NCBI GenBank assembly: GCA_021324445.1
Contig: JAJPJC010000477.1
Location: 1-64,000 of the forward strand
Direction of reading: 5' to 3'
DNA length: 64,000 bases
From: Isosphaeraceae bacterium
Lineage (GTDB): Bacteria; Planctomycetota; Planctomycetia; Isosphaerales; Isosphaeraceae
Within the stretch, counting starts at the first letter, position 1, and each line of letters opens with the position of its first letter. Shown piece by piece: positions 51,301-64,000 of the stretch. The position numbers were made by a program, and so were the translations under genes. Below the pieces are notes generated by a model. That model saw only the letters and a list, made by a program, of their open reading frames with translations. It was not told the DNA's origin and made no database searches.

Positions 51301-53247
51301 TTACTCCCGATGTCGAGCGTTTCCCGAGATCCCGAGGACCTCGAACGACCCCCGTGTGGCCGCGCCGGCCGGATCGCGCGGTTCCACGACCCGGTAGCTC
51401 CTGTCAGCGGCCAGGTGTTCGGCGACGCTGACGCGCCCGGAGGGCCAGCGGACGGTCACCTTCTGCGCCTCCGGCTGATCTCCCAGGCCGATCAGGAGCC
51501 GGGGATCGTGCGCGCTCTCCAGGCTCGTCCCGCCTTTGCGCTGACGGACGAGCTTGCGGCCGGCCAGCTCGACCTCGACGCGCGCTCCGATGGCGTCGCG
51601 ATTGCTGACCGTGCCCACGAGGGACAGGCGGATCCAGTGATGGGTCGTCCTGGTATCGTTCCGCAACAGCGCCGGCGCCGCGTCCTTGTGATTGATGACG
51701 ATATCGATGTCGCCATCGTCGTCCAGGTCGCCGAAGGCCGCACCCCTGCCGACGTGATCCGCGTCGAAGTACGCCCCGGCATCGCGCGTGGCCAATCGGA
51801 ACCGGCGTCCCTGGAGGTTGCGGTGCAGCAAGGGGGGCTGGGCATACGGGCTGTTGTACCCCATCTGATCGAGGTTGTCGTCCACATGGCCGTTGGTGAC
51901 GAAGCAATCGGGCCAGCCGTCGTTGTCGAAGTCCGCCAGCGCGCAGCCCCAGCCGACCCAGGGCGTGCTGTCACTGGCCATCCCGCTGCTGGGCGTCCGA
52001 TCCTCGAACAGGCCGTCTCCCAGGCCCACATACAGCGAGTTGGGCTCATTCCAGTAATTGGTGACGACCAGGTCGACCCAGCCGTCGCCGTCGATATCCT
52101 CGGCGTCGACGCCCATCCCGGCGTGGGTCTGGCCCCGCGCGCCGTAGCCGGCACCCGAGGATTCCGTGACGTCCTGAAACGTGCCGTTGCCGCGATTGAG
52201 GTACACGAAGTTCGGGCACATATCGTTGGCCACGTAGAGGTCGACTCGGCAGTCGCCGTTGAGGTCGGCCGCGACGACGCCGAAGCCGCGGCCATCGGTC
52301 CGGCCGACGCCCGCCGCCTCGGTCACGTCGGTGAAGGTCAGGTCGCCGTTATTGCGGTAGAGAACATGGCGGGCCGGCTTGATGGACGTGGGGATGCAGT
52401 AGGTCCGCACTTTCCCCTGCGCGTCGCCGCAGAACCGATCGTCGTGCGGCAGCGTCCACTGACCGTAATTGGCCACGTAGAGGTCGAGGTCTCCATCATT
52501 GTCGTAATCGAGGAATGCTCCGCCGGAGGACCAGTTGGGGCGGTCGATCCCCGCCGAGTGGCTGATATCCCGGAACGTGCCGTCGCCGTTGTTCAGGAAG
52601 AGCACGTTCGGACCGTAATTGCAGAGGAAGACGTCCGGGTCGCCGTCGTTGTCGATGTCACCGACCACGATCCCGTGGCAATAGCCGGCGAAGCCTAGCC
52701 CCGAGTGGCCGGTGACGTCCTGAAAGCGGTTGTCGCCCAGGTTCTTGTAGAGCCGGTTCGGCCCGTTCCGAGCGGTGCCCAGCGGCAGGAGCGTCCCGGT
52801 GGCGAAGTAGAGGTCGAGCTTGCCATCGCCATCGAAGTCGAAGATGGCCACCCCCGAGCCGTTGGACGTCGGTAGGTACTTCTCCGCGGTCATCCCGGAG
52901 AAATGCACGAAGTCGATCCCGGCCTGCCGGGCGATCTCGGCGAATCGGAATGGACTCGGATCCTGGGGCTGGGTCCGGTTCAGTCGAGTCGAGACCAGGT
53001 TGACCGCACCCGGCCCGATGCCTGCGGTTGTGCCCCCCGAGAGCCCTGCGCCGGGGCGCCTGGCCGGGGAAAACGCGACGTTCCGGCAAACCGCCAGGAC
53101 CACGGAGCCGCCCAGGAGCAGACCCAGGATCGCGAGCCAGCGCAACAGCACGTGCGGGGCGACGCGATCCCTCGGACCGGGAGTCGCCTCCGTCGTGGGA
53201 CGCGACGACCGCTCGCTCGATGCTCCGCTCGCTCGAACCCAGCTCAT
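51301..53247 (-). CDS. CRTAC1-like FG-GAP/VCBS protein with ASPIC_UnbV domain
   Basis: 648 residues. A signal anchor (about 33-52) precedes about seven FG-GAP/VCBS repeats with calcium-binding-like DxDGDGxxD loops (FDFDGDGKLDLYF, DIDNDGDPDVFLCN, DLNGDCRVDLYVAN, DIDGDGWVDLVV). The C-terminus is an ASPIC/UnbV domain (GARVEVELAGRKLVRQ, LIGLGDQ, VRWPSG). Such proteins are exported adhesion or scaffold proteins. It is the third gene of the cluster 57529-49812. Confidence 0.92.
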   Translation of the reverse strand: MSWVRASGASSERSSRPTTEATPGPRDRVAPHVLLRWLAILGLLLGGSVVLAVCRNVAFSPARRPGAGLSGGTTAGIGPGAVNLVSTRLNRTQPQDPSPFRFAEIARQAGIDFVHFSGMTAEKYLPTSNGSGVAIFDFDGDGKLDLYFATGTLLPLGTARNGPNRLYKNLGDNRFQDVTGHSGLGFAGYCHGIVVGDIDNDGDPDVFLCNYGPNVLFLNNGDGTFRDISHSAGIDRPNWSSGGAFLDYDNDGDLDLYVANYGQWTLPHDDRFCGDAQGKVRTYCIPTSIKPARHVLYRNNGDLTFTDVTEAAGVGRTDGRGFGVVAADLNGDCRVDLYVANDMCPNFVYLNRGNGTFQDVTESSGAGYGARGQTHAGMGVDAEDIDGDGWVDLVVTNYWNEPNSLYVGLGDGLFEDRTPSSGMASDSTPWVGWGCALADFDNDGWPDCFVTNGHVDDNLDQMGYNSPYAQPPLLHRNLQGRRFRLATRDAGAYFDADHVGRGAAFGDLDDDGDIDIVINHKDAAPALLRNDTRTTHHWIRLSLVGTVSNRDAIGARVEVELAGRKLVRQRKGGTSLESAHDPRLLIGLGDQPEAQKVTVRWPSGRVSVAEHLAADRSYRVVEPRDPAGAATRGSFEVLGISGNARHRE

Positions 53248-53285
53248 GGCCCGACCTCGGCCTTCCTATGTGACCTGACCTGACC

Positions 53286-54530
53286 TCAGGGGGATGTGGT
53301 GGACGACGAAGACGACGAGTCCGCCAGCGCGGGGAGGGAAAGCGGCCGGCCGGACGCCTGCGCCAGCTCCGGATGCGCGGCGTGCAGGGCCTTCAGGCTC
53401 TGGCGTGCCGGCTGGAAGCTCGCGTCGAGGGCCAGCGCCGCCTGGAAGCAACGGCTGGCCAGCAGGAATGAGCCCGACTCTTGAGCTGTCTGCCCCATCT
53501 GCCAGGGAATCCGCGGATCCTCGGGGTGGCGTGCGATCTCCGCGCCGAGCTGGTTCATCCGTGCGATGCGCTCCTGGGAGGCTTCGCGCCGGGATTGGGT
53601 CGCCGCGGCCCGCTCCTTCAGCCCCAGCCGGGTCTCGATCTTCTGGAGCAACTGGAGCGCGCCCAGATCGTTGGGCGCGGCCGCGACGGCACGCTCCGCG
53701 ACGACCAGGGCCTGGTCCCAGTGCGCGCGGGCGACATGAGTCCGGGCGCAGGCCAGCAAGGCATCCAGGTTGCGCGGGTCGTGCGCCAGCGCCCGATCGG
53801 CCAGGGAAAGCGCCGCCTCGAACCGATTGGCGTCGAACGCCGCGCGCGCGCCGTAACCCAGCATGACCGGGTCGTCGGGAAACTGCTGAAGCGCCCTGGT
53901 CACCCAGGTCTGGGCCTCCTCGGCCTGGTCGCTGGCCATCAGGCAGCCGATCAAGCCGACCAGCGCCGCGCGGTCCCCGGGCCTGAGCCGGACGGCCTTC
54001 TCATACGCCTGGATCGCCCTGGGGAAGTCGCCCAGGTCCTGGAGGACCTTGCCCAGGTTCAGCCAGACGGGGAACTCGCGCGGTCGGAGCCGAGCGGCCC
54101 CCTCGAGCACCTCGACCCCGCGTTTGCCGTGACCCAGGGCGAACTGCAATTCGGCCAGCGTCACGGCGGACTCGAATTGATTCGGCTGGAGCTGCACCGC
54201 GCGCTCCAGCGCCAGCCGGGCCAAGTGGTACTGGCCGAGCCGGATCAAGGCCAGCCCGGCGACGGTCATGGCCTCGCCCGAGCCGGGCGCCTCATCCCGG
54301 ACGTGACTGACGGCATTCAGCGCCAGGTCGGGACGACCAAAGCGCAGATAGGCACGACCACGCTCGACCGCTTCCCAGTGCCCGGGAACGAAGCCGCGTC
54401 GCCAGTGCCACCCGAGCCATCCCGCGACCGCCAGGGCCAGGACCGCGGCGCCGATGGCCAGGGCACGCCGGGCCGTCCGGGCGGCGCCCGGCGCGGCGAG
54501 AGTCGGATCGGCGAGCGTGGTCCTGTTCAT
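53286..54530 (-). CDS. Membrane-anchored TPR protein
   Basis: 414 residues. One N-terminal helix (about 24-42), then at least eight TPR-like repeats (for example LNLGKVLQDLGDFPRAIQAY and LGYGARAAFDANRFEAALSL). It lies between two CRTAC1-type genes on the same strand (48 bases after the upstream stop, 38 bases before the next start) and probably scaffolds the same envelope complex. No catalytic residues are apparent. Confidence 0.85.
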   Translation of the reverse strand: MNRTTLADPTLAAPGAARTARRALAIGAAVLALAVAGWLGWHWRRGFVPGHWEAVERGRAYLRFGRPDLALNAVSHVRDEAPGSGEAMTVAGLALIRLGQYHLARLALERAVQLQPNQFESAVTLAELQFALGHGKRGVEVLEGAARLRPREFPVWLNLGKVLQDLGDFPRAIQAYEKAVRLRPGDRAALVGLIGCLMASDQAEEAQTWVTRALQQFPDDPVMLGYGARAAFDANRFEAALSLADRALAHDPRNLDALLACARTHVARAHWDQALVVAERAVAAAPNDLGALQLLQKIETRLGLKERAAATQSRREASQERIARMNQLGAEIARHPEDPRIPWQMGQTAQESGSFLLASRCFQAALALDASFQPARQSLKALHAAHPELAQASGRPLSLPALADSSSSSSTTSP

Positions 54531-54577
54531 GTGCGCGTGAGTCTCCGGCCGGCATCGGTTCGCACGACTGAACGCTA

Positions 54578-57529
54578 TTATCGGTGGTCCGTTTCGCCGC
54601 GGGAAGGGGAACTGACTCGGGGGCGGACGGCGTGAACCGCGAGGTTGTCCCCTTCCTGGAGGTCGAGGATGCGGTCGGCCGGCAGGTTCGACCAGGCCTG
54701 CACCATCCCGGAGGGCCAGCGGACTTCGAGGTGCTCGACCATCCGGGCAGACCCGAGCCCGAACCAGAGCCGGCTGTCACTCGCGGACAAATAGCTTGTC
54801 CCACTGGTCACCCAGCGCACCGCGGATCGGCGGCCGGCGCGGCAGACCACGCGCGCCCCGACAGGAGTCCGGCCGGATCGCGTCCCGCGCAGACGCAGTC
54901 CCAACCAATGACCGCCCCTCGTGCGGTTGCGGAGCACGGCCGCCGGCGCATCGCGATGCACGACGACCAGGTCGACTCGGCCATCGTTGTCCAGGTCGCC
55001 CGCGGCCACGCCGCGGCCGACCACCGGGTGCACGAAATAGGGCGAGACCTCGGTTCCCGCCGGGGTAAAACGGCCGTGCTCCCGGCCCAGGAACAACTGC
55101 GCGGCCTGGGCCATCGGCGTGTTGAGCCAGGGCTGATCATCGGTATGACCGTTGCCCACGAAGAGGTCGAGAGTCCCGTCGTTGTCGACATCGAGCGCCA
55201 CGGTGCCGAACCCGGTCTTGGAACGGCTCGGGGCGGCCAGGTTCGCCGCCAGGGTCGCGTCGACGAACTGGCCGCCGCCCAGGTTCCAGCGCAGGGTGTT
55301 GGCCTGGTTGATGAAGTTGGTGTGGAACAGGTCGATGCGGCCATCACCATTGAGGTCCTCGGCCACCACGCCCATGCTCGCGGTGGGCTGCCCCGTCCCG
55401 TCGTACGCCACCCCCGCGGTGAGGCCGGCCTCCTCGAAGTGCAGTCCGCCGCGGTTGCGGAACAAGAAGTTCGCCGTCCCGTCGTTGGCCACGAAGAGGT
55501 CGAGCCGGCCGTCCCCGTCGAGATCGGCAATGGCCAGGCCCAGGCCCTTCCCCTCGGGGACTTCGATCCCCGCCTCCCGGCTGACGTCGGTGAACGTGCC
55601 GTCCCCATTGTTGCGGAAGAGATGATCGAGCTGGGCCGGGAACCGTTCGGGCTGGCAGTGGATCCGCCTGCCGGACTTATCCCGGCATTCGACTGCGGAC
55701 GCGGGGTCGGCCTCGACGTAGGTGACGGCCACCAGGTCCAGGTCGCCGTCCCCATCCAGGTCGCCGAAACCCGCGGCGGTCGTCCAGCGCGAGGACGAGA
55801 CCCCGGCGCGTTCCGTGACCTCCTCGAACGTGCCATCTCCCCGATTGCGATAGAGGACGGTCTGGCCCAGCCCGGTCACGAACACGTCGTCGTGCCCATC
55901 GTTGTCGAAATCGCCCACGGCGCAGCCCATCCCGTAACCACGCCCGGCGACCCCGGCCCGCTCGGTGACATCCTCGAAGGTCCCATCGCCCCGGTTGCGA
56001 TACAGCCTGTTCGGCCCGGGGGGAGATCGCCGATCGAAGGGCAAACGGCACCCGTTGACGAAGTAAATGTCGAGCCAACCATCACCATCATAATCGAACA
56101 GGGCGACGCCGCCGCCCATGGTGTCGCCGATGAACAAGTTGGGGGTCGCCCCGCATTCGTACCGGAATCGAACTCCCGACCGCGGGGCAATGTCCTCGAA
56201 CCGGGGACCGGAGTCCGATTGGGCCGCCATCTGGGGGGTGCCCTCGAGCGGCCGCGGCGATGCCGACGCCTTGAGCACGGGCCGGGAGAGGGCCACGGCC
56301 GGACCGTCGTCCCAAGGCGCGAGGCGCGCCGGGTCGAATCCCGGGGGCGGGGAACGGTGTCGCGGATCGCGCTGGAGGGCCAGCTCGAACCAATCTCGCG
56401 CCTCGGCGGTCATTCCGACCTCCTGGCAAAGCTGACCGATCCGCAGCAGCGCGTCGCCGTCGAAGGGCTCGCGGAGCAGGCGCCGGAGCTCGCGTTTCAA
56501 GCGGTCGTCCCGGACGCCGAGGGCCTCGGCGCGGTCCAGGTGGACCCGGGCTGCCGGCCGGTCACCACGACGGATCAGGACCTGTCCAAGGCGGTAGTGG
56601 GCCTCCGCGTTGCGGGGATCCGCCGCGACGGCCTTCTGCAAGCCCAGCAGGGCCTCCTCGTCCCGGCCCCAGGCCTCGGCCAGCCTGCTGCGCAACACCC
56701 ACCACCGTGAGGCATCGACGGCCCGGCTCGGCGGGGTGCCGAGGAGGGCGAGATCGTGTTGGGAGTCCCCCAGGGCCATCCGGCATTCCGCCAGGGCGAA
56801 CCGCCCCAGGGGGTCGTCCTCGAAAGCGACGGCCGCCGCCTCGAGGTAGGGCCGAGCCTCGGCCGACCGGCCGTGCGCGTGCAAGAAAAGGCCCCAGGCC
56901 CGGCCCAGCCAGGGATCGTCGGGCGTCTGGCGCAGGAACTCCTCGAGCTCCGGGCTGGAGTCCTGGACTTCCGACTCGATCTGGGTAACCAGGATGCTGT
57001 CGACGAGGTGGCGAGGCTGGCGCGAGACCTGGAACAGCCGCCGGAGGACCTCGCGCGCCTCGGCGGTCCTCCGTTCCAGGACCAGAAGGGAGGCCAGCCG
57101 TTCGAGCGGCTTGACGTCCCGCCGGTCGCGCTCGGCCACACCTCGGAAAATCCGCTCGGCCTCCGCGAGACGCCGCTGCCGGACCGCGATCTCGCCGAGG
57201 AGCGTCTGGGCGTGCACCCAGCCTTCATCCCGCGCGCGCACCTGCCGTAAAGCCGTCAGGGCCTCCTCGGTACGACCCCGATCGACCAGGAGACCCCCGA
57301 GCATCTCCCAGGCGTCACCGTCCCGGGGATGCCGCCGCAACCATTGACGCAGGCCGGCTTCCACCTCGGCCCAGCGCTGCGCGGCGATCGCGCGGCGGAT
57401 CCCATCCAGACTCGGCTCCCGAGAGCGGCCCCACACCAGGTACCCCAGGCTCGCCAGGGCGGCCAAGAGCATCGCAGCACCACTCGCCCACTTCAACCCA
57501 GGCGATCGCTGCGACCTCGAAGATGGCAT
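54578..57529 (-). CDS. TPR-CRTAC1 fusion protein with ASPIC_UnbV domain
   Basis: 983 residues. A signal anchor (about 17-35) is followed by TPR repeats (about 45-400), then FG-GAP/VCBS repeats (about 450-860) with GGGVALFDYDGDGWLDIYFV, CAVGDFDNDGHDDVFVTG and LDVDNDGTLDLFVGNG, and an ASPIC_UnbV domain at the end (GARVVCRAGRRSAVRW, LWFGLGSA, VRWPSG). TPR and propeller are thus fused here but encoded separately by the next two genes. ATG 57529 is preferred over 57688 because it begins the signal anchor. First gene of the cluster. Confidence 0.92.
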   Translation of the reverse strand: MPSSRSQRSPGLKWASGAAMLLAALASLGYLVWGRSREPSLDGIRRAIAAQRWAEVEAGLRQWLRRHPRDGDAWEMLGGLLVDRGRTEEALTALRQVRARDEGWVHAQTLLGEIAVRQRRLAEAERIFRGVAERDRRDVKPLERLASLLVLERRTAEAREVLRRLFQVSRQPRHLVDSILVTQIESEVQDSSPELEEFLRQTPDDPWLGRAWGLFLHAHGRSAEARPYLEAAAVAFEDDPLGRFALAECRMALGDSQHDLALLGTPPSRAVDASRWWVLRSRLAEAWGRDEEALLGLQKAVAADPRNAEAHYRLGQVLIRRGDRPAARVHLDRAEALGVRDDRLKRELRRLLREPFDGDALLRIGQLCQEVGMTAEARDWFELALQRDPRHRSPPPGFDPARLAPWDDGPAVALSRPVLKASASPRPLEGTPQMAAQSDSGPRFEDIAPRSGVRFRYECGATPNLFIGDTMGGGVALFDYDGDGWLDIYFVNGCRLPFDRRSPPGPNRLYRNRGDGTFEDVTERAGVAGRGYGMGCAVGDFDNDGHDDVFVTGLGQTVLYRNRGDGTFEEVTERAGVSSSRWTTAAGFGDLDGDGDLDLVAVTYVEADPASAVECRDKSGRRIHCQPERFPAQLDHLFRNNGDGTFTDVSREAGIEVPEGKGLGLAIADLDGDGRLDLFVANDGTANFLFRNRGGLHFEEAGLTAGVAYDGTGQPTASMGVVAEDLNGDGRIDLFHTNFINQANTLRWNLGGGQFVDATLAANLAAPSRSKTGFGTVALDVDNDGTLDLFVGNGHTDDQPWLNTPMAQAAQLFLGREHGRFTPAGTEVSPYFVHPVVGRGVAAGDLDNDGRVDLVVVHRDAPAAVLRNRTRGGHWLGLRLRGTRSGRTPVGARVVCRAGRRSAVRWVTSGTSYLSASDSRLWFGLGSARMVEHLEVRWPSGMVQAWSNLPADRILDLQEGDNLAVHAVRPRVSSPSRGETDHR

Positions 57530-58022
57530 GGGCGGTCGTTCCCGGAGGTGTTCGTCTCGGCGGCGAGCTCGGGTCTCCTTCCCGTCGGCCTCCTGACATT
57601 TCAGTCGATGGCTCGGCCAGCGTCCAGGTTTTTTTCGTGGGCCCGCCGCCCCCGGCTGGCAGAGGGCAGCCGGGGGCGGCTGCCCCACATCCTCTGAGAG
57701 AGCGCTTCGATCTCAATGAAAGCACGGAAAGCGGACAGTCGGGCTGGCTCGCTCGGCCGGAGAGCCGGGGGATTCGGCCCGCAGAGCCCGATCACCGGCT
57801 TCCCGGCCCATCTGCCTGACCTGTCACGCCGCAGGGACACTGTGTCGACTGTCACATGCCCCGGGTCGACTCCGGACAACACATCCTCTTCACCGACCAC
57901 TGGATCCGGGTTCGCCACCCGGGCGAGGCGACGTCAAGGCCCAACCCACCCGCGGCCCAGCGGGACCTCCTGGATCCGGCTGAACCCTGAGGCGGGGGTC
58001 CGACGGCGGATCGGCGCTCCGA
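57530..58022. other. Intergenic region with strong hairpin
   Basis: About 490 bases. The notable structure is a perfect 13-bp inverted repeat, CCGCCCCCGGCTG with CAGCCGGGGGCGG (57646-57658 and 57667-57679), next to a T7 run at 57629-57635. The T-run lies before the hairpin on the plus strand and appears as A-run after it on the minus strand, so it does not make an intrinsic terminator. Nothing else recognisable. Confidence 0.5.
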
Positions 58023-58688: not shown

Positions 58689-59672
58689 TCAAGGGTGCGG
58701 TCCCGGCTCCCGGGTGTGAGGCGGATCGAGCGGCGGTCCGCGCCGGGGCGCGTCGTCTCCGCGCAGGCCCAAGACCGTCAGGTCGAGGGAATCGCCGGGC
58801 GGCAGGATCAGCTTGCGCCGGACCCGATCGAGCAGGTCTTGCAGCGTTTCGATGTACAGGCGGCGGATCGTGAGGTCCGGGGAGCGCCGGGCTTCCGCCA
58901 TCAGGGTGAGGAAGTGCTGGGCCTCGGCGCGGGCGTGCAGGGTGGTCCGTGTCGCGTCGGCGCGGGCGGCCTCGCGGGCGGCCTCGGCTTGCGCCTTGGC
59001 GGCGGTGAGCTGGACGGCCTCGTGGGTCCTGGCCTCGTGGACCCGGCGATCGCGATGGCTCTCGGCGGCCTGGGCGGCGGCGAAGTCGGCGGCGACCTCG
59101 ACGGGGGGCCGCGCGTCGGTCAGGCTCACGCCCAGGATCGCCGCGCCGAGTGCGAGTCGGTCGGAGTCAGCCTGAAGGTCCCGCTCGACGTCCCGGGCGA
59201 TGAGCTGCCGGTCCGAGCGGAGCACGGCGTCGACGCCCCGGCGGGCCAGCGCCCGCGTGAGGCTCGCCTCCGCGGAGCGCGCGAGCAGGTGCTCGGCCGG
59301 CTCCGCGTGCAAGACAAAATCGACGGGCCGCGCCACCCGGTACTGGACGGTCGCCTGGATTCGCACCAGATTGAGGTCGCCGGTCAGGGCCTCGCCGGTC
59401 GAGGGCTCCTGATCCCCGCCCGGCGGACCGGCCTGGCCGATCGTCACGTGCCGCACGGCGTCGGAACGGACGCGGTCCAGCCGGTCGATCCCCAGGGGAA
59501 ACCGCCAGTGCAAGCCCGGTCCCCAGGGGGGCTCGACCAGTCGGCCCAGCCGGCGGACCACCACGACCTCGCCGGGCGCGACCAGGCACCACCCGGCCGC
59601 GACGAACAGGGCGACGGCCAGTCCCAGACCGGCTGCCAGCGCTGCCAGAAGTTTCTTCCAGTCCCTGTTCAT
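58689..59672 (-). CDS. SPFH/Band 7 protein, HflK-like
   Basis: 327 residues. An N-terminal membrane helix (about 9-30) is followed by an SPFH domain (APGEVVVVRRLGRLVEPPWG, GPGLHWRFPLGIDRLDRV) and an Ala/Glu/Arg-rich coiled coil (about 200-275). This is the HflK layout; HflK/HflC form large cages around the FtsH protease. It is the third gene of the operon led by the ATPase-SPFH fusion, and its ATG overlaps the stop of the HflC-like gene by 4 bases. The C-terminal 40 residues are Pro/Arg-rich. Confidence 0.85.
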   Translation of the reverse strand: MNRDWKKLLAALAAGLGLAVALFVAAGWCLVAPGEVVVVRRLGRLVEPPWGPGLHWRFPLGIDRLDRVRSDAVRHVTIGQAGPPGGDQEPSTGEALTGDLNLVRIQATVQYRVARPVDFVLHAEPAEHLLARSAEASLTRALARRGVDAVLRSDRQLIARDVERDLQADSDRLALGAAILGVSLTDARPPVEVAADFAAAQAAESHRDRRVHEARTHEAVQLTAAKAQAEAAREAARADATRTTLHARAEAQHFLTLMAEARRSPDLTIRRLYIETLQDLLDRVRRKLILPPGDSLDLTVLGLRGDDAPRRGPPLDPPHTREPGPHP

Positions 59673-60640
59673 GGGTGGCCTGCCGCCTTCTGGAGCGCCG
59701 GACCTTCGGGTGTTCGCGCGGCGGTCGACGAACCCGGTATCGGCTCGGACGATGGGCCCTGGACCAGCAGTTTCAGCAGCGGACTGGAGGCGGAGAGCAC
59801 CACGGTGGTCCGGTCGTCGAGGATCGCGCGATACGACTCGAGCGTGCGGAGGAACGCGAAGAACCGCGGGTCGCGCGCGTGGGCCTCATTCAGCAGGCGC
59901 GTCGCCTCGGCCTCGGCGGTGCCGCGGATCCGACGGGCGTCGGCCTCGGCTTCGGCCAGGATCGTGTCGCGCATCCGGTCGGCCTGGCTGGTGATCGTCA
60001 CGAACTGGGCATCGCCCTCGGCCCGCAGCTTGGCGGCGACCTGGCGGCGCTCGCTGCGGATCAGGTCGAAGACGGCCGGCCGGACTTCCACCGGGTGGCT
60101 GAACCGCCGCAGCCGGATGTCTCGCACCTCGACGCCCAGCTCCGCGCGGGCCGCCGGGGCGACCGCGTCCCACACGTCGCGCACCAGGGCGTCCAGCGCC
60201 CATTTTCCCGCGTCGGTCGAGGCCATCGCGGCCAGGTCGCGGCGACCGATCGCGGCGCTGAGGCCGGCCGAGACGCGCTCATCCAGCCGGGCCTCGGCCG
60301 ATTCGTGACTCCCCGAGCCGCGCACGAACCGGACCGGATCCGCCACGCGCCAGACGACATAAGGCGCGACCTCCAGGTTCCGCTTGTCCCCGGTGATGAC
60401 CTCGCGCGGCGCGGGGTCGAACACCTTGAGCCGCCGGTCGACCTTCAGGGCGAACTGCCAGGGCGCCTTCAGATGCAGCCCCGCCTCGCCGGGGTCGTCG
60501 CCATAGACGGCCACGACCCGGCCGAAGCTGGTCACGATGGCGAACTCGGTCTCATCCACGGCGACACACGACACGATCGCCATGCCCCCCAGGGCCAGGA
60601 CCAGGAGAATCGCGAGGATCCAGCGGAATGGGTGCTTCAT
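59669..60640 (-). CDS. SPFH/Band 7 protein, HflC-like
   Basis: 323 residues. The N-terminal helix (about 6-25) ends in IVSC, which would also satisfy a lipobox, so this could be a lipoprotein. The SPFH domain (TEFAIVTSFGRVVAV, GLHLKAPWQFALKVDRRLKV, PREVITGDKRNLEVAPYVVW) and the downstream EAEADARRIRGTAEAEATRL helix match HflC. It lies 37 bases after the ATPase-SPFH fusion and overlaps the HflK-like gene. HflC-like before HflK-like is the reverse of the usual hflK-hflC order. Confidence 0.88.
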   Translation of the reverse strand: MKHPFRWILAILLVLALGGMAIVSCVAVDETEFAIVTSFGRVVAVYGDDPGEAGLHLKAPWQFALKVDRRLKVFDPAPREVITGDKRNLEVAPYVVWRVADPVRFVRGSGSHESAEARLDERVSAGLSAAIGRRDLAAMASTDAGKWALDALVRDVWDAVAPAARAELGVEVRDIRLRRFSHPVEVRPAVFDLIRSERRQVAAKLRAEGDAQFVTITSQADRMRDTILAEAEADARRIRGTAEAEATRLLNEAHARDPRFFAFLRTLESYRAILDDRTTVVLSASSPLLKLLVQGPSSEPIPGSSTAARTPEGPALQKAAGHP

Positions 60641-60677
60641 GATTTCGGCTCTGGAGACCGGGACAGGAGCGGTTCAC

Positions 60678-63600
60678 TCATCGGTTACCGGCGGCCGGTG
60701 AGTCCTTGCCAAGTGCCGGCAGCATCACCTCCCACGGGGCTTCCGGCAGGACCAGGTGGCGGCGGCGTGCCGGCTCCTCGCCGAGGACGAGCTTGGCCTT
60801 GCCGGCGAGAGCGTCGGCGACCGCCTTCCAGAAGAGTCGAAAATCGGTGAGGGACGGGGCGTACTGGCGCGCCTCCAGCAGGGAGCTGAAACGGTCGGCT
60901 GCGGCGGCGGCCAGGGCAAGCTGCCGGGCCCGGGCCGCCTCGGCCGCGTGGCGCAGGGCCTGGGACCGGCCGGTCACTTCGGCGAGCACCTGGTCGCGGT
61001 ACGCGCCCGCTTCGTTGATCCGCCGCTGACGGTCGCTGGTCGCCCGCGAGACCTCACGGTAGACGTCGAGGACGGCCAGCGGAGGATGGATGTCCTGGAA
61101 CGCGATCCGGCGGACCGCGATGCCGAACCGATCGACACGCAGCCGGTTTTGCAGCAGCTCGGCGGCCGCCTCCTCCGCGGCGCGACGACCCGCGGTCAGC
61201 AGGTCGAGCAGCTCCCGACGGCTCACGACCTCGCGCACGGCCGACTCCGCCAGCGACCGCACGGCGGCTTCGGCGGCGTCGACCTCGAAGACGAAGCGGC
61301 GGAGCGATTCCGGATCCTCCCCGTCGATCGCATACTCGAGCGTGGCGGCCAGCTCCACGTAGCGGCTGTCTCCAGTCAGGAGCAGGGCCTCGTCCTCGGC
61401 GGGATCACCCTGGCTGCGGCCGTGGGTCGACTCCCAGCCCACGGTCAGGGCGTCGGGCCGCCGCGCCGCGCGGAAGCCGATCTCCAGGCTCCGGACCCGG
61501 TCCGGCGCCACGGTCTGGACGCGTTCGATCGGCCAGGGCCAGCGGAGGTGCAGCCCCGGCCCGAGCGTGGCTTCGTACCGGCCGAAGCGCTGGAGCACCC
61601 CCAGCTCGCTCGGCCCGATCGCCGTCCAGCCGCTCGTCGCATAGGCCAGGAGCAGCGCGCCGGCCAGTCCGCCCAGGATGATCCTGTGCCGGGTCCCGAT
61701 CCATCCCCAGACCGCCGGGAGGTCGACGCGGTCGTCGAGGCGCGCGATCGCGGCGCCGAGCCGCCGGAGCTGGCGGACCGGCGGCAGCTCGGCCCAGTCG
61801 CCGAAGACCAGCAGCCGCATCGAGTTGAGCAGGACCAGCAGCGAGCCGGCCTGGTGGAGCACCGCGGCGGCGACCGGTCCGAGGATGCCGAAGGTGGCCG
61901 AGAGCATCGCCACGGCATTGAGCCCGAAGGCGAAGCCGAGGATGTTCTGGCGGATGATCGCGACCGTGCTCCGTGCCAGGCGGAGCAGCTCCGGCAGCAC
62001 GCGGAGCGGATCGCCCAGGAGGATCAAGTTGCCGGCCTCCGCCGCGAGGTCCGCGCCGATGCCCCCCAGCGCAATGCCGGCATCGGCCCGGGCCAGGGCC
62101 GGCGCGTCGTTGATCCCGTCGCCGACCATGGCCACGCGCCGACCGGCAGTGCGCCGCTCCTCGATCCAGCGGGCCTTGTCCGCCGGCAGCAGCTCGGCGG
62201 CCACGGTGTCGGCGTGCACCCGCCTGGCCACCGCCCGGGCGGCCGGCTCCCGGTCGCCGGTCAGGATCGCGATCTCCTTGATCTTCAGGTGCCGCAGGTC
62301 GTGGATCACGTCGTGGGCTTCGGGCCGGATCGCGTCCTGGACACCCATCACCCCGGCCACCGCGCCGTCAACCGCGACCAGCAGCGCGGTCTGCGCCCGG
62401 GCATCGAGCTGGCCCAGGATCGCTTCGGCTTGCGGGTCCGGCGTGATGTTCTGCTCGGCCAGGAGGCGACGGTTGCCGACCAGGACCGTGTGCGACTGGT
62501 CGTCGCCTGTCGCGGCGCAACGGGCGTGCACTCCGGCGCCGGGCAGGACGTTGACCTCGCTGGGCTCGATCAGCCCGAGTCCGCGTCGCCGCGCCTCCGC
62601 GACGACGACCGCCGCCAGGGGATGGCGGCTGGCCGACTCCGCCGACGCCGCCAGGCGCAGGAGAGACTCCTCGTCGAATCCCTCCAGGGCGATCAGGCTG
62701 GTGAACTGGGGCGAGCCTCGAGTCAGCGTCCCGGTCTTGTCGAAGGCGAAGGTGTCGCAGGCCGCCAGGCTCTCCAGCGCCGAGCCTCCCTTGATCAACA
62801 CGCCGTGCCGAGCCAGCCAGGCCATGCTGGCGAGCATCGCGGCCGGAGTCGCCAGGACCAGGCCGCAGGGACAGGCGACGACCAGCACGGCCACGGTCCG
62901 CGACCAGACGTCGGGCCAGCCGGCGAGGTATCCGATCAGGAGGGTCGCCAGGGCGGCCAGCTCGACGACGGGGAGGAAGTAGCGCGCCAGGCGGTCGGCG
63001 ACCTTCTCGATCCGGGCCTTGCGGCGCCTGGCCTGCGCGACGAGTTTCAGCACCTGGCCGAACGTCGTGTCGCCGCCGACCTTCTCGGCGACGACCTCGA
63101 TCGCCCCGAACTGGTTGATCGTGCCGGTGAACACGGCGTCGCCGAGCCCCTTGTCGATGGGGAGCGACTCGCCGGTCAAGGCCGATTGATCGACCGTGGA
63201 CCGACCCGCCTGGACGGTCCCATCGACCGGGATGCGCTCGCCCGGCCCGACCACAACGCGATCGCCGGTCGCGACCTGGTCGGCCGGAACCTCGACCTCC
63301 TGGCCGTCGCGGCGCACCCGGGCGGTGCGCGGCGTCTGCTCGACCAGGCGGCCCAGGGCCCGACGCGTCCGGGCGAAGGTCCAGGCCTCCAGGACCTCGC
63401 CCACCAGCGCGATGAAGACGACCTCGGCCGCCACGAACGGCTGGCCGATGACCAGGGCCGCCAGGCACGCCTGCGCCAGGGCCAGGTCCGCCCCGACCCG
63501 GCCGTGCAGCAGCGACTGGAGCGTGCCATAGACGATGTACACGGCGCCCAGCAGCGCCGCGATCATCCCCGGCGAGAGCCTGAGGGGGAACCGTCCCTGA

Positions 63601-63764
63601 TCCCAACCGAGTAGACCCAGCAGGACGTCGGCCCCGATCAGCACGCCCAGGAGCGCCGTGAAGGACACGAGCGCACGATCGTCGGGAGCCTCAGCGGCGA
63701 CCGACGCGCCGAAGACGACGCTCTCCCCATGATGCATATCGTCCGGTCGATACTCGCGATGCAT
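60678..63764 (-). CDS. P1B-type ATPase fused to SPFH/HflK-like domain
   Basis: 1028 residues. Residues about 30-655 are a heavy-metal P-type ATPase: TGES (197-200), membrane CPC (C298/C300), phosphorylation site DKTGT (D342), SRHP (379-382) and GDGINDAP (548-555). No N-terminal HMA domain is present; the head has only a few His. After a linker, a new membrane helix (about 693-711) starts an SPFH domain (PSELGVLQRFGRYEATLGPG, LHLRWPWPIERV) and an Ala/Arg-rich coiled coil (about 900-965). The pump would export or import a soft-metal cation by ATP hydrolysis while the SPFH part assembles it into a microdomain or cage. Starts at 63764 or 63737; neither has a strong ribosome-binding site. Confidence 0.9.
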   Translation of the reverse strand: MHREYRPDDMHHGESVVFGASVAAEAPDDRALVSFTALLGVLIGADVLLGLLGWDQGRFPLRLSPGMIAALLGAVYIVYGTLQSLLHGRVGADLALAQACLAALVIGQPFVAAEVVFIALVGEVLEAWTFARTRRALGRLVEQTPRTARVRRDGQEVEVPADQVATGDRVVVGPGERIPVDGTVQAGRSTVDQSALTGESLPIDKGLGDAVFTGTINQFGAIEVVAEKVGGDTTFGQVLKLVAQARRRKARIEKVADRLARYFLPVVELAALATLLIGYLAGWPDVWSRTVAVLVVACPCGLVLATPAAMLASMAWLARHGVLIKGGSALESLAACDTFAFDKTGTLTRGSPQFTSLIALEGFDEESLLRLAASAESASRHPLAAVVVAEARRRGLGLIEPSEVNVLPGAGVHARCAATGDDQSHTVLVGNRRLLAEQNITPDPQAEAILGQLDARAQTALLVAVDGAVAGVMGVQDAIRPEAHDVIHDLRHLKIKEIAILTGDREPAARAVARRVHADTVAAELLPADKARWIEERRTAGRRVAMVGDGINDAPALARADAGIALGGIGADLAAEAGNLILLGDPLRVLPELLRLARSTVAIIRQNILGFAFGLNAVAMLSATFGILGPVAAAVLHQAGSLLVLLNSMRLLVFGDWAELPPVRQLRRLGAAIARLDDRVDLPAVWGWIGTRHRIILGGLAGALLLAYATSGWTAIGPSELGVLQRFGRYEATLGPGLHLRWPWPIERVQTVAPDRVRSLEIGFRAARRPDALTVGWESTHGRSQGDPAEDEALLLTGDSRYVELAATLEYAIDGEDPESLRRFVFEVDAAEAAVRSLAESAVREVVSRRELLDLLTAGRRAAEEAAAELLQNRLRVDRFGIAVRRIAFQDIHPPLAVLDVYREVSRATSDRQRRINEAGAYRDQVLAEVTGRSQALRHAAEAARARQLALAAAAADRFSSLLEARQYAPSLTDFRLFWKAVADALAGKAKLVLGEEPARRRHLVLPEAPWEVMLPALGKDSPAAGNR

Positions 63765-63862: not shown

Positions 63863-64000
63863 ATTGCATGCGCTACCGCATCAGAATTGTGAAGATCATG
63901 TGAAGACCTGGGTTCGTTTCAACGATTTTTGGGGTGCTGAAGCCTGGTCATTGCATGCACTGCCGGCTCGAAATTGTGAAGATCTTATGAAAAACTGGGT
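63863..64000. promoter_or_regulatory. Direct repeats upstream of the ATPase-SPFH operon
   Basis: Two 51-bp copies (63863-63913 and 63950-64000) match at 41 positions. Each contains ATTGTGAAGATC and an internal 11-bp period: TGTGAAG at 63888 and 63899, and TGTGAAG at 63975 with TATGAAA at 63986. Tandem 7-bp half-sites at 11-bp spacing are the usual binding layout of OmpR/PhoB-type response regulators. The first copy lies about 100 bases upstream of the ATPase start. The second reaches the window edge, so more copies or a divergent gene may follow. Confidence 0.5.

Follow-up and report, generated by a model that had tools for sequence, protein, structure and literature searches.

A P1B-type metal ATPase fused to an HflK-type SPFH protein in a three-gene operon of the Isosphaeraceae

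The first 64,000 nucleotides of contig JAJPJC010000477.1 of an Isosphaeraceae bacterium (Planctomycetota; assembly GCA_021324445.1, forward strand), in the following called the window, contain a three-gene operon on the minus strand, which combines a metal-transporting ATPase with SPFH proteins. The first gene is a single open reading frame for 1028 residues, which starts with a complete eight-helix P1B ATPase; an Arg-rich linker then leads to a lone membrane helix, behind which an HflK-type SPFH domain and a coiled coil are found. This fusion had been proposed from the letters of the DNA alone (the sequence-only reading); its coordinates, strand and frame turned out to be exact, and the motifs and the Pfam and NCBIfam domains agree with the proposal. 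Two further SPFH genes follow on the same strand, the first after a gap of 37 bp and the second with an overlap of 4 bp. Band_7, the Pfam family of SPFH domains, matched both of the smaller proteins as well as the fused one, so the claim of three SPFH proteins per operon was also right. The features of the operon are, in the direction of transcription:

60678..63764, minus strand: fused gene for a P1B ATPase and an HflK-type SPFH protein (K1), 1028 residues; a conserved single open frame
61809..63764, minus strand: ATPase part, residues 1-652, with A, P and N domains and eight membrane helices (Pfam, NCBIfam, alignment, AlphaFold model)
62865..62873, minus strand: metal-site motif CPC in M4, C298-P299-C300; invariant in the ATPase alignment
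62727..62741, minus strand: phosphorylation motif DKTGT, residues 342-346, with D342 (alignment)
61818..61859, minus strand: M6 motif LHQAGSLLVLLNSM, with H637, Q638, G640 and S641 (alignment with unfused relatives)
61689..61808, minus strand: Arg-rich linker, predicted to be cytoplasmic, residues 653-692 (linker sequence comparison)
61632..61688, minus strand: membrane helix of K1, residues 693-711 (693-710 in the model); aligns with the HflK anchor helix
61080..61631, minus strand: SPFH/Band 7 domain of K1, residues 712-895 (Pfam, NCBIfam, Protein Data Bank match, model)
60867..61079, minus strand: coiled-coil helix of K1, 71 residues, 896-966 (AlphaFold model)
59669..60640, minus strand: HflC-type SPFH gene (C), 323 residues; over the TIGR01932 cut-off
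58689..59672, minus strand: second HflK-type SPFH gene (K2), 327 residues (family score and SPFH tree)

Pfam placed E1-E2_ATPase at residues 143-320, Hydrolase at 337-561 and Band_7 at 716-919 of the fused protein, and the NCBIfam model of heavy-metal P-type ATPases (TIGR01525) matched residues 95-651 with 560 bits (cut-off 346). The membrane helices of the ATPase lie at residues 22-51, 65-86, 92-105, 109-141, 251-281, 286-319, 586-625 and 630-652 of the AlphaFold model. The P1B motifs TGES, CPx in M4, DKTGT, HP and GDGxNDxP (here GDGINDAP) are all present and are invariant or nearly so in the alignment. When the predicted structure was searched with Foldseek, the top matches were CopA, ZntA and CoaT-like pumps. 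Matches by sequence and by fold in the Protein Data Bank (PDB) comprised CopA (7r0g, 3rfu), ZntA (4umv) and a CoaT-like pump (7qbz), which share the eight helices as well as TGES, CPC, DKTGT, HP and GDGxNDAP with the fused pump. In contrast to these pumps, the fused one has no HMA domain, but a short N-terminal tail with histidines (MHREYxPxDMHH), a distinct M6 motif, and the C-terminus of an HflK protein. The M6 consensus of the fused pumps, LHQxGSLLVLLN[SA]MRLL, differs from the CopA-type MxxSS, the ZntA-type DxGxS and the CoaT-type HEGST of unfused relatives, and because it matches none of these patterns, the pump cannot be assigned to one of the metal subgroups P1B-1, P1B-2 or P1B-4. Judged by its motifs, its helix count and its score with the curated model, the fused ATPase is a complete P1B-type pump.

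The C-terminal 372 residues matched E. coli HflK in the PDB with an E value of 1.2e-21, and the match spans the membrane helix and the start of the SPFH domain. The anchor helices align as SGWTAIGPSELGVLQRFG in the fused protein and SGFYTIKEAERGVVTRFG in E. coli HflK. With the NCBIfam model of HflK (TIGR01933), the K1 part scored 153.5 bits over residues 715-997 and K2 scored 155.1 bits, both just below the cut-off of 159.4, and C scored 159.9 bits with the HflC model (TIGR01932), above the cut-off of 134.4. Both parts of the fused protein are folded units in the AlphaFold model, which was made with an 11-sequence alignment. Of the 40 residues of the linker, 6 are basic, and the model contains linker helices at 661-691. 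Among the fusions, amino-acid identity is lowest in the linker (0.50-0.59), higher in the SPFH part (0.60-0.62) and highest in the ATPase (0.74-0.79). Codon-position differences have a flatter profile in the linker than in the two domains, which indicates that the linker is loosely constrained and that both the ATPase and the SPFH domain are under clear constraint.

Of the 45 genomes of the order to which the window belongs, 29 contain the fusion, among them Singulisphaera acidiphila, and often there are two paralogues; nearly all complete copies are uninterrupted frames of more than 1000 codons. A scan of genome contigs, which reached close relatives only, recovered it in Singulisphaera acidiphila DSM 18658 (NC_019892.1) and in 11 contigs of planctomycete metagenome-assembled genomes. 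A clade B operon of three genes (for the clades, see below) lies at about 8,974,900-8,980,200 of NC_019892.1. Outside the order, a 392-genome sample of the phylum yielded fusions with 39-46% identity in two genomes of the same class (G373 and G216) and in one genome of another class (G160, 39%). Since 37 distinct fused sequences were found in total, a few of them truncated by contig ends, the fusion is not a sequencing error, and an assembly error or a chance frame could be ruled out. The sequence-only reading had pointed to a stop codon or frameshift near residues 655-690 as one way in which the fusion could be spurious, and to an SPFH-like part that is just an ordinary ATPase C-terminus as another. 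Both were excluded: conservation of the frame extends through the junction, the unfused P1B relatives terminate soon after M6, and the C-terminus matches HflK.

The paralogues fall into clade A, with 55-72% identity, to which the fusion of the window belongs, and clade B, with identities of about 50%. The clade B copy of the window's genome lies on contig C316. This genome is a draft with an estimated contamination of 8.5%, and both clades co-occur in several other genomes. A CRxCxP motif is present in the linker of most clade B paralogues (L014, L031, L124, L085, L103) and absent from the clade A protein of the window; it could be a metal-binding, metal-sensing or redox site between the pump and the SPFH part.

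For a comparison of operons, genes were called with a codon-usage model and then clustered. Leaving out contig-end fragments, 27 loci of the order were inspected; in 24 of these, C and K2 lie downstream of the fused gene and on its strand, and in 21 of the 24 they follow it directly. Where the pair is not adjacent, another part of the genome was found to contain it in each of the cases examined, namely clade B of the window's genome, G405, G373 and G216; the clade B fusion of the window's genome stands alone at its locus, and its HflC/HflK pair is on contig C137. Clade B operons often extend further with genes for proteins of about 190 and about 1000 residues, of which the larger matches only DUF3604 in Pfam and the smaller has no match. 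Across the 45 genomes, fusion and HflC partner were both present in 27 and both absent in 14, and two genomes each contained the fusion only or the partner only (agreement in 41 of 45; Fisher p 8e-8, which is not a strict probability because the genomes are related). Three of the four discordant genomes are only 68-81% complete. The fourth, G395, has a frameshift within the ATPase part of its fusion gene (L196, 5391-5584), immediately ahead of intact C and K2 genes. G395 is a single-contig Isosphaeraceae genome, and the frameshift might represent a pseudogene, a sequencing error or a programmed frameshift. Domain order, conservation, co-occurrence, gene order and family assignments are directly established.

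These results bear on the question whether the SPFH part is just a lateral membrane anchor, that is, a scaffold organizing a microdomain or lipids that concentrates pumps and forms no closed cage and exerts no gating. SPFH proteins generally organize membranes, the E. coli complex scrambles lipids (PMC13220708), and some of the fusions are alone in their operon, all of which speaks for such an anchor. However, the pump and the full set of two HflK types and one HflC type are retained jointly, in some genomes at separate places, and a simple anchor would not require this set. We consider the anchor explanation to be quite unlikely.

A parallel system without fusion exists in other planctomycetes. 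One clade of unfused P1B ATPases comprises compact proteins of about 650-680 residues, which lack an HMA domain and have an N-terminal tail rich in histidine. The gene for such an ATPase takes the end position in a cluster that further comprises three SPFH genes, for proteins of about 690, 310 and 430 residues, in the order K1, C and K2. The K1 of about 690 residues is an HflK-type SPFH protein that is preceded by about six additional membrane helices, which occupy the place of the ATPase in the fusion. No Pfam family matches this six-helix domain. Full-length relatives of the six-helix K1 were found across many families by a profile search of the phylum sample. Plasmid records were searched with the fusion and with the six-helix K1, and none reached a coverage of 80% for either.

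Forty trio loci were fetched by their K1, selected for family diversity and not at random. In 22 of them, an ATPase of this clade was encoded in the same direction and no more than about 3 kb away, contiguous with the trio in 14 and 0.9-3.1 kb upstream, with space for another gene, in 8. By our own estimate, which assumes a handful of P1B ATPases per multi-Mb genome, chance would account for about 1% of loci. A search that started from the ATPase revealed 19 loci with an unfused ATPase beside a K1-C-K2 trio. Both systems co-occur in G160, with the unfused cluster on C239 and the fusion operon on C51. The M6 consensus of the operonic pumps, LHxxG[SA]xxVIFNSARL, is centred on a histidine, as is that of the fused pumps, unlike M6 of CopA-, ZntA- and CoaT-like relatives. 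CPC in M4 is common to both types of pump, and some operonic pumps have CPS or TPC. The operonic pumps of family f30 (L144, L149, L150, L151) contain TCPS in place of CPC, and TPC is found at L161; the TCPS and TPC variants suggest a changed metal or a loss of transport.

For both systems, the SPFH tree places the middle gene on the side of HflC and the two outer genes, the first and the third, on that of HflK. Based on this placement, both systems are K1-C-K2 trios in the same order. In both, K1 has a polytopic membrane domain ahead of its anchor helix, which is composed of six helices in one system and of the whole pump in the other. In the ATPase tree, all fused ATPases form one clade and the operonic ATPases another, and in a fuller tree two contig-end fragments of the fused kind fall inside the clade of the fused. 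Seen from the sequences, the fusion looks like one form of a wider association of P1B pumps with HflK-HflC-HflK proteins in the Planctomycetota.

It could be argued that fusion and operon are a neutral historical accident, in which an ATPase gene merged with the SPFH gene next to it and the product was tolerated. Both parts are complete and could each function alone, and the linker that joins them is the least conserved stretch. Against this, the fusion has been retained across the deep divergence that separates the window's genome from G160, it has been duplicated as a fusion into two paralogue clades, it is kept and lost jointly with its partner, and the unfused clusters of other families run parallel to it. 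We regard a neutral origin as extremely improbable.

In E. coli, 24 copies of HflK and HflC form a closed or nautilus-like shell around the protease FtsH (PMC13220708). The proteins of the operon share with this complex (PDB 7vhp, 7wi3, 9cz1, 9cz2) the HflK and HflC types and their gene pairing, the N-terminal anchor helix, the SPFH domain and the coiled coil. They differ in that there are two HflK types instead of one, that the presumed client is a covalently attached metal pump, that ftsH is unlinked, and that a normal HflK/C pair is present besides. As the sequence-only reading had stated, no ftsH gene is linked to the operon; the one FtsH gene of the window's genome is on contig C95. The canonical HflK/HflC pair, which scores above both family cut-offs, is on contig C18. 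These observations are relevant for the explanation that the SPFH trio is a second FtsH-HflK/C complex and that the fusion serves no other purpose than to place the turnover or the membrane insertion of the pump under the control of FtsH. That the SPFH proteins are of the HflK and HflC types and that an FtsH gene is present would fit, and in E. coli MgtA is listed as an FtsH substrate (PMC13220708). The HflK residues R141, E142 and R185, which are implicated in the contact to FtsH (PMC13220708), correspond to R, S and R of K1 in the PDB alignment, so that two of the three are kept. In contrast, the replacement of E142 by Ser, the lack of linkage to ftsH and the pair on C18 speak against a second FtsH complex; because of this pair, the role of the FtsH partner is probably already filled. 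Altogether, we find this explanation, which is the chief competitor of the reading given below, rather unlikely.

Taken together, the operon most likely encodes one membrane complex, an HflK/HflC-type assembly that has a P1B metal pump as built-in client, instead of or beside FtsH, and we regard this as moderately probable. We infer co-assembly into a cage, the topology, the direction and identity of the ion, the purpose of the cage and any involvement of FtsH as follows. The two HflK-type proteins, K1 and K2, and the HflC-type protein would form a hetero-oligomeric shell, with the pump at the cytoplasmic N-terminus of K1. P1B pumps have both termini in the cytoplasm. Therefore, a cytoplasmic position is expected for the linker and a periplasmic one for the SPFH domain, which the K1 helix would take across the membrane: M6 would bring the chain back to the cytoplasm, the Arg-rich linker would lead into the anchor helix, and SPFH domain and coiled coil would be periplasmic, as in HflK. 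The pump would take up a soft or transition metal in the cytoplasm and release it on the periplasmic side. Should K1, C and K2 assemble like HflK and HflC of E. coli, each K1 would bring one pump to the shell, and the ion might be delivered at or into the space beneath the shell and be confined or passed on there. Alternatively, the cage could set the number and position of the pumps or shield the pump from FtsH. In other planctomycetes, the K1-C-K2 trio with the six-helix K1 would cooperate with a pump that has its own gene and is broadly of the same type.

Several points weigh against this reading. Gene order and fusion demonstrate a functional linkage, not a cage. About half of the trio loci (L130-L152, L201-L240) have no ATPase nearby, some of them at contig ends, and the trio can therefore have another client. 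In the best trees, the fused and the operonic ATPases are not sisters, and neither are the fused K1 and the six-helix K1. Approximately unbiased tests of joining the fused and unfused proteins gave p values of 0.35 for the ATPase, 0.39 for K1 and 0.44 for K2, and a single origin was thus neither rejected nor demonstrated. The AlphaFold model is of middling quality (mean predicted local distance difference test score 73.8, predicted template-modelling score 0.55), and K1 may still bind FtsH, as R141 and R185 are kept. Nevertheless, the proposal of the sequence-only reading that the pump is confined or gated by an HflK/C-like assembly stands as the best-supported one, strengthened by gene order, co-occurrence and the unfused parallel, whereas its suggested link between metal stress and membrane protein quality control found no direct support.

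The surroundings of the operon contain further features. Upstream of the fused gene, one element resembles a binding site of a response regulator:

63888..63905, minus strand: perfect direct repeat CTTCACA-N4-CTTCACA, Pho-box-like, about 125 nucleotides upstream of the fused ATG, with a weaker copy at 63975 (sequence)

It was not kept upstream of 21 homologues, which rules it out as a conserved control element. Two direct repeats of 51 bp, 87 bp apart, lie in the same region (63863-64000, minus strand); the nearer one holds the Pho-box-like element, and there is no adjoining divergent gene. Clade A operons often have ExbB/ExbD-like genes as neighbours (L105-L115). Eight clade A loci are near a run of four genes (clusters 3-6) that resemble ExbB/TolQ, ExbD, ExbD and a fourth membrane protein, as named by eye, and in the window's genome ExbB/ExbD-like genes (L241; C318, 71496-73431) are found about 8 kb upstream of the fused gene. 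Downstream of the operon (51301-57688, minus strand), large proteins are encoded one after another; inspection of their translations by eye suggests FG-GAP/VCBS-like calcium-binding repeats and TPR-like stretches.

P-type ATPases with further membrane subunits are known, e.g. KdpFABC. The Kdp subunits form the ion path, whereas the SPFH proteins described here are of the scaffold type. SPFH genes in an operon with a dedicated membrane partner are also known: in SPFH-NfeD operons, the partner is NfeD, which in some groups carries a ClpP-like protease domain, and the SPFH genes are sometimes duplicated (Hinderhofer et al. 2009, PMC2636767), whereas the partner here is a metal pump. That survey covered prokaryotic SPFH proteins from 497 genomes, and the word ATPase does not occur in its text (PMC2636767). 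No paper on a fusion or operon of a P-type ATPase with SPFH proteins was found in the open-access literature, a coverage that leaves out most subscription papers and preprints.

All parts are from known families, and the caged pump stands a fair chance of being a transport machine of a new kind. A more far-reaching possibility, which we put forward tentatively and with some doubt, is that the Planctomycetota have a distinct metal-transport machine, in which a shell of two HflK types and HflC has a P1B pump as its client. It may be ancestral or repeatedly assembled, and it may release the metal into a shielded periplasmic space or hand it to partners; in the Isosphaeraceae, the pump would have replaced the six-helix domain of K1, so that cage and pump would be a single molecule. 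Apart from FtsH, little is known of the clients of SPFH assemblies, which enclose a patch of membrane. With the fused client and its unfused parallel, a client would be named by sequence, and its orientation and number per K1 would be fixed. The effect of SPFH cages on the proteins that they enclose would thereby become testable with one cloned operon, and P1B ATPases, which are usually regarded as single-chain pumps, would be extended to a pump with a dedicated scaffold.

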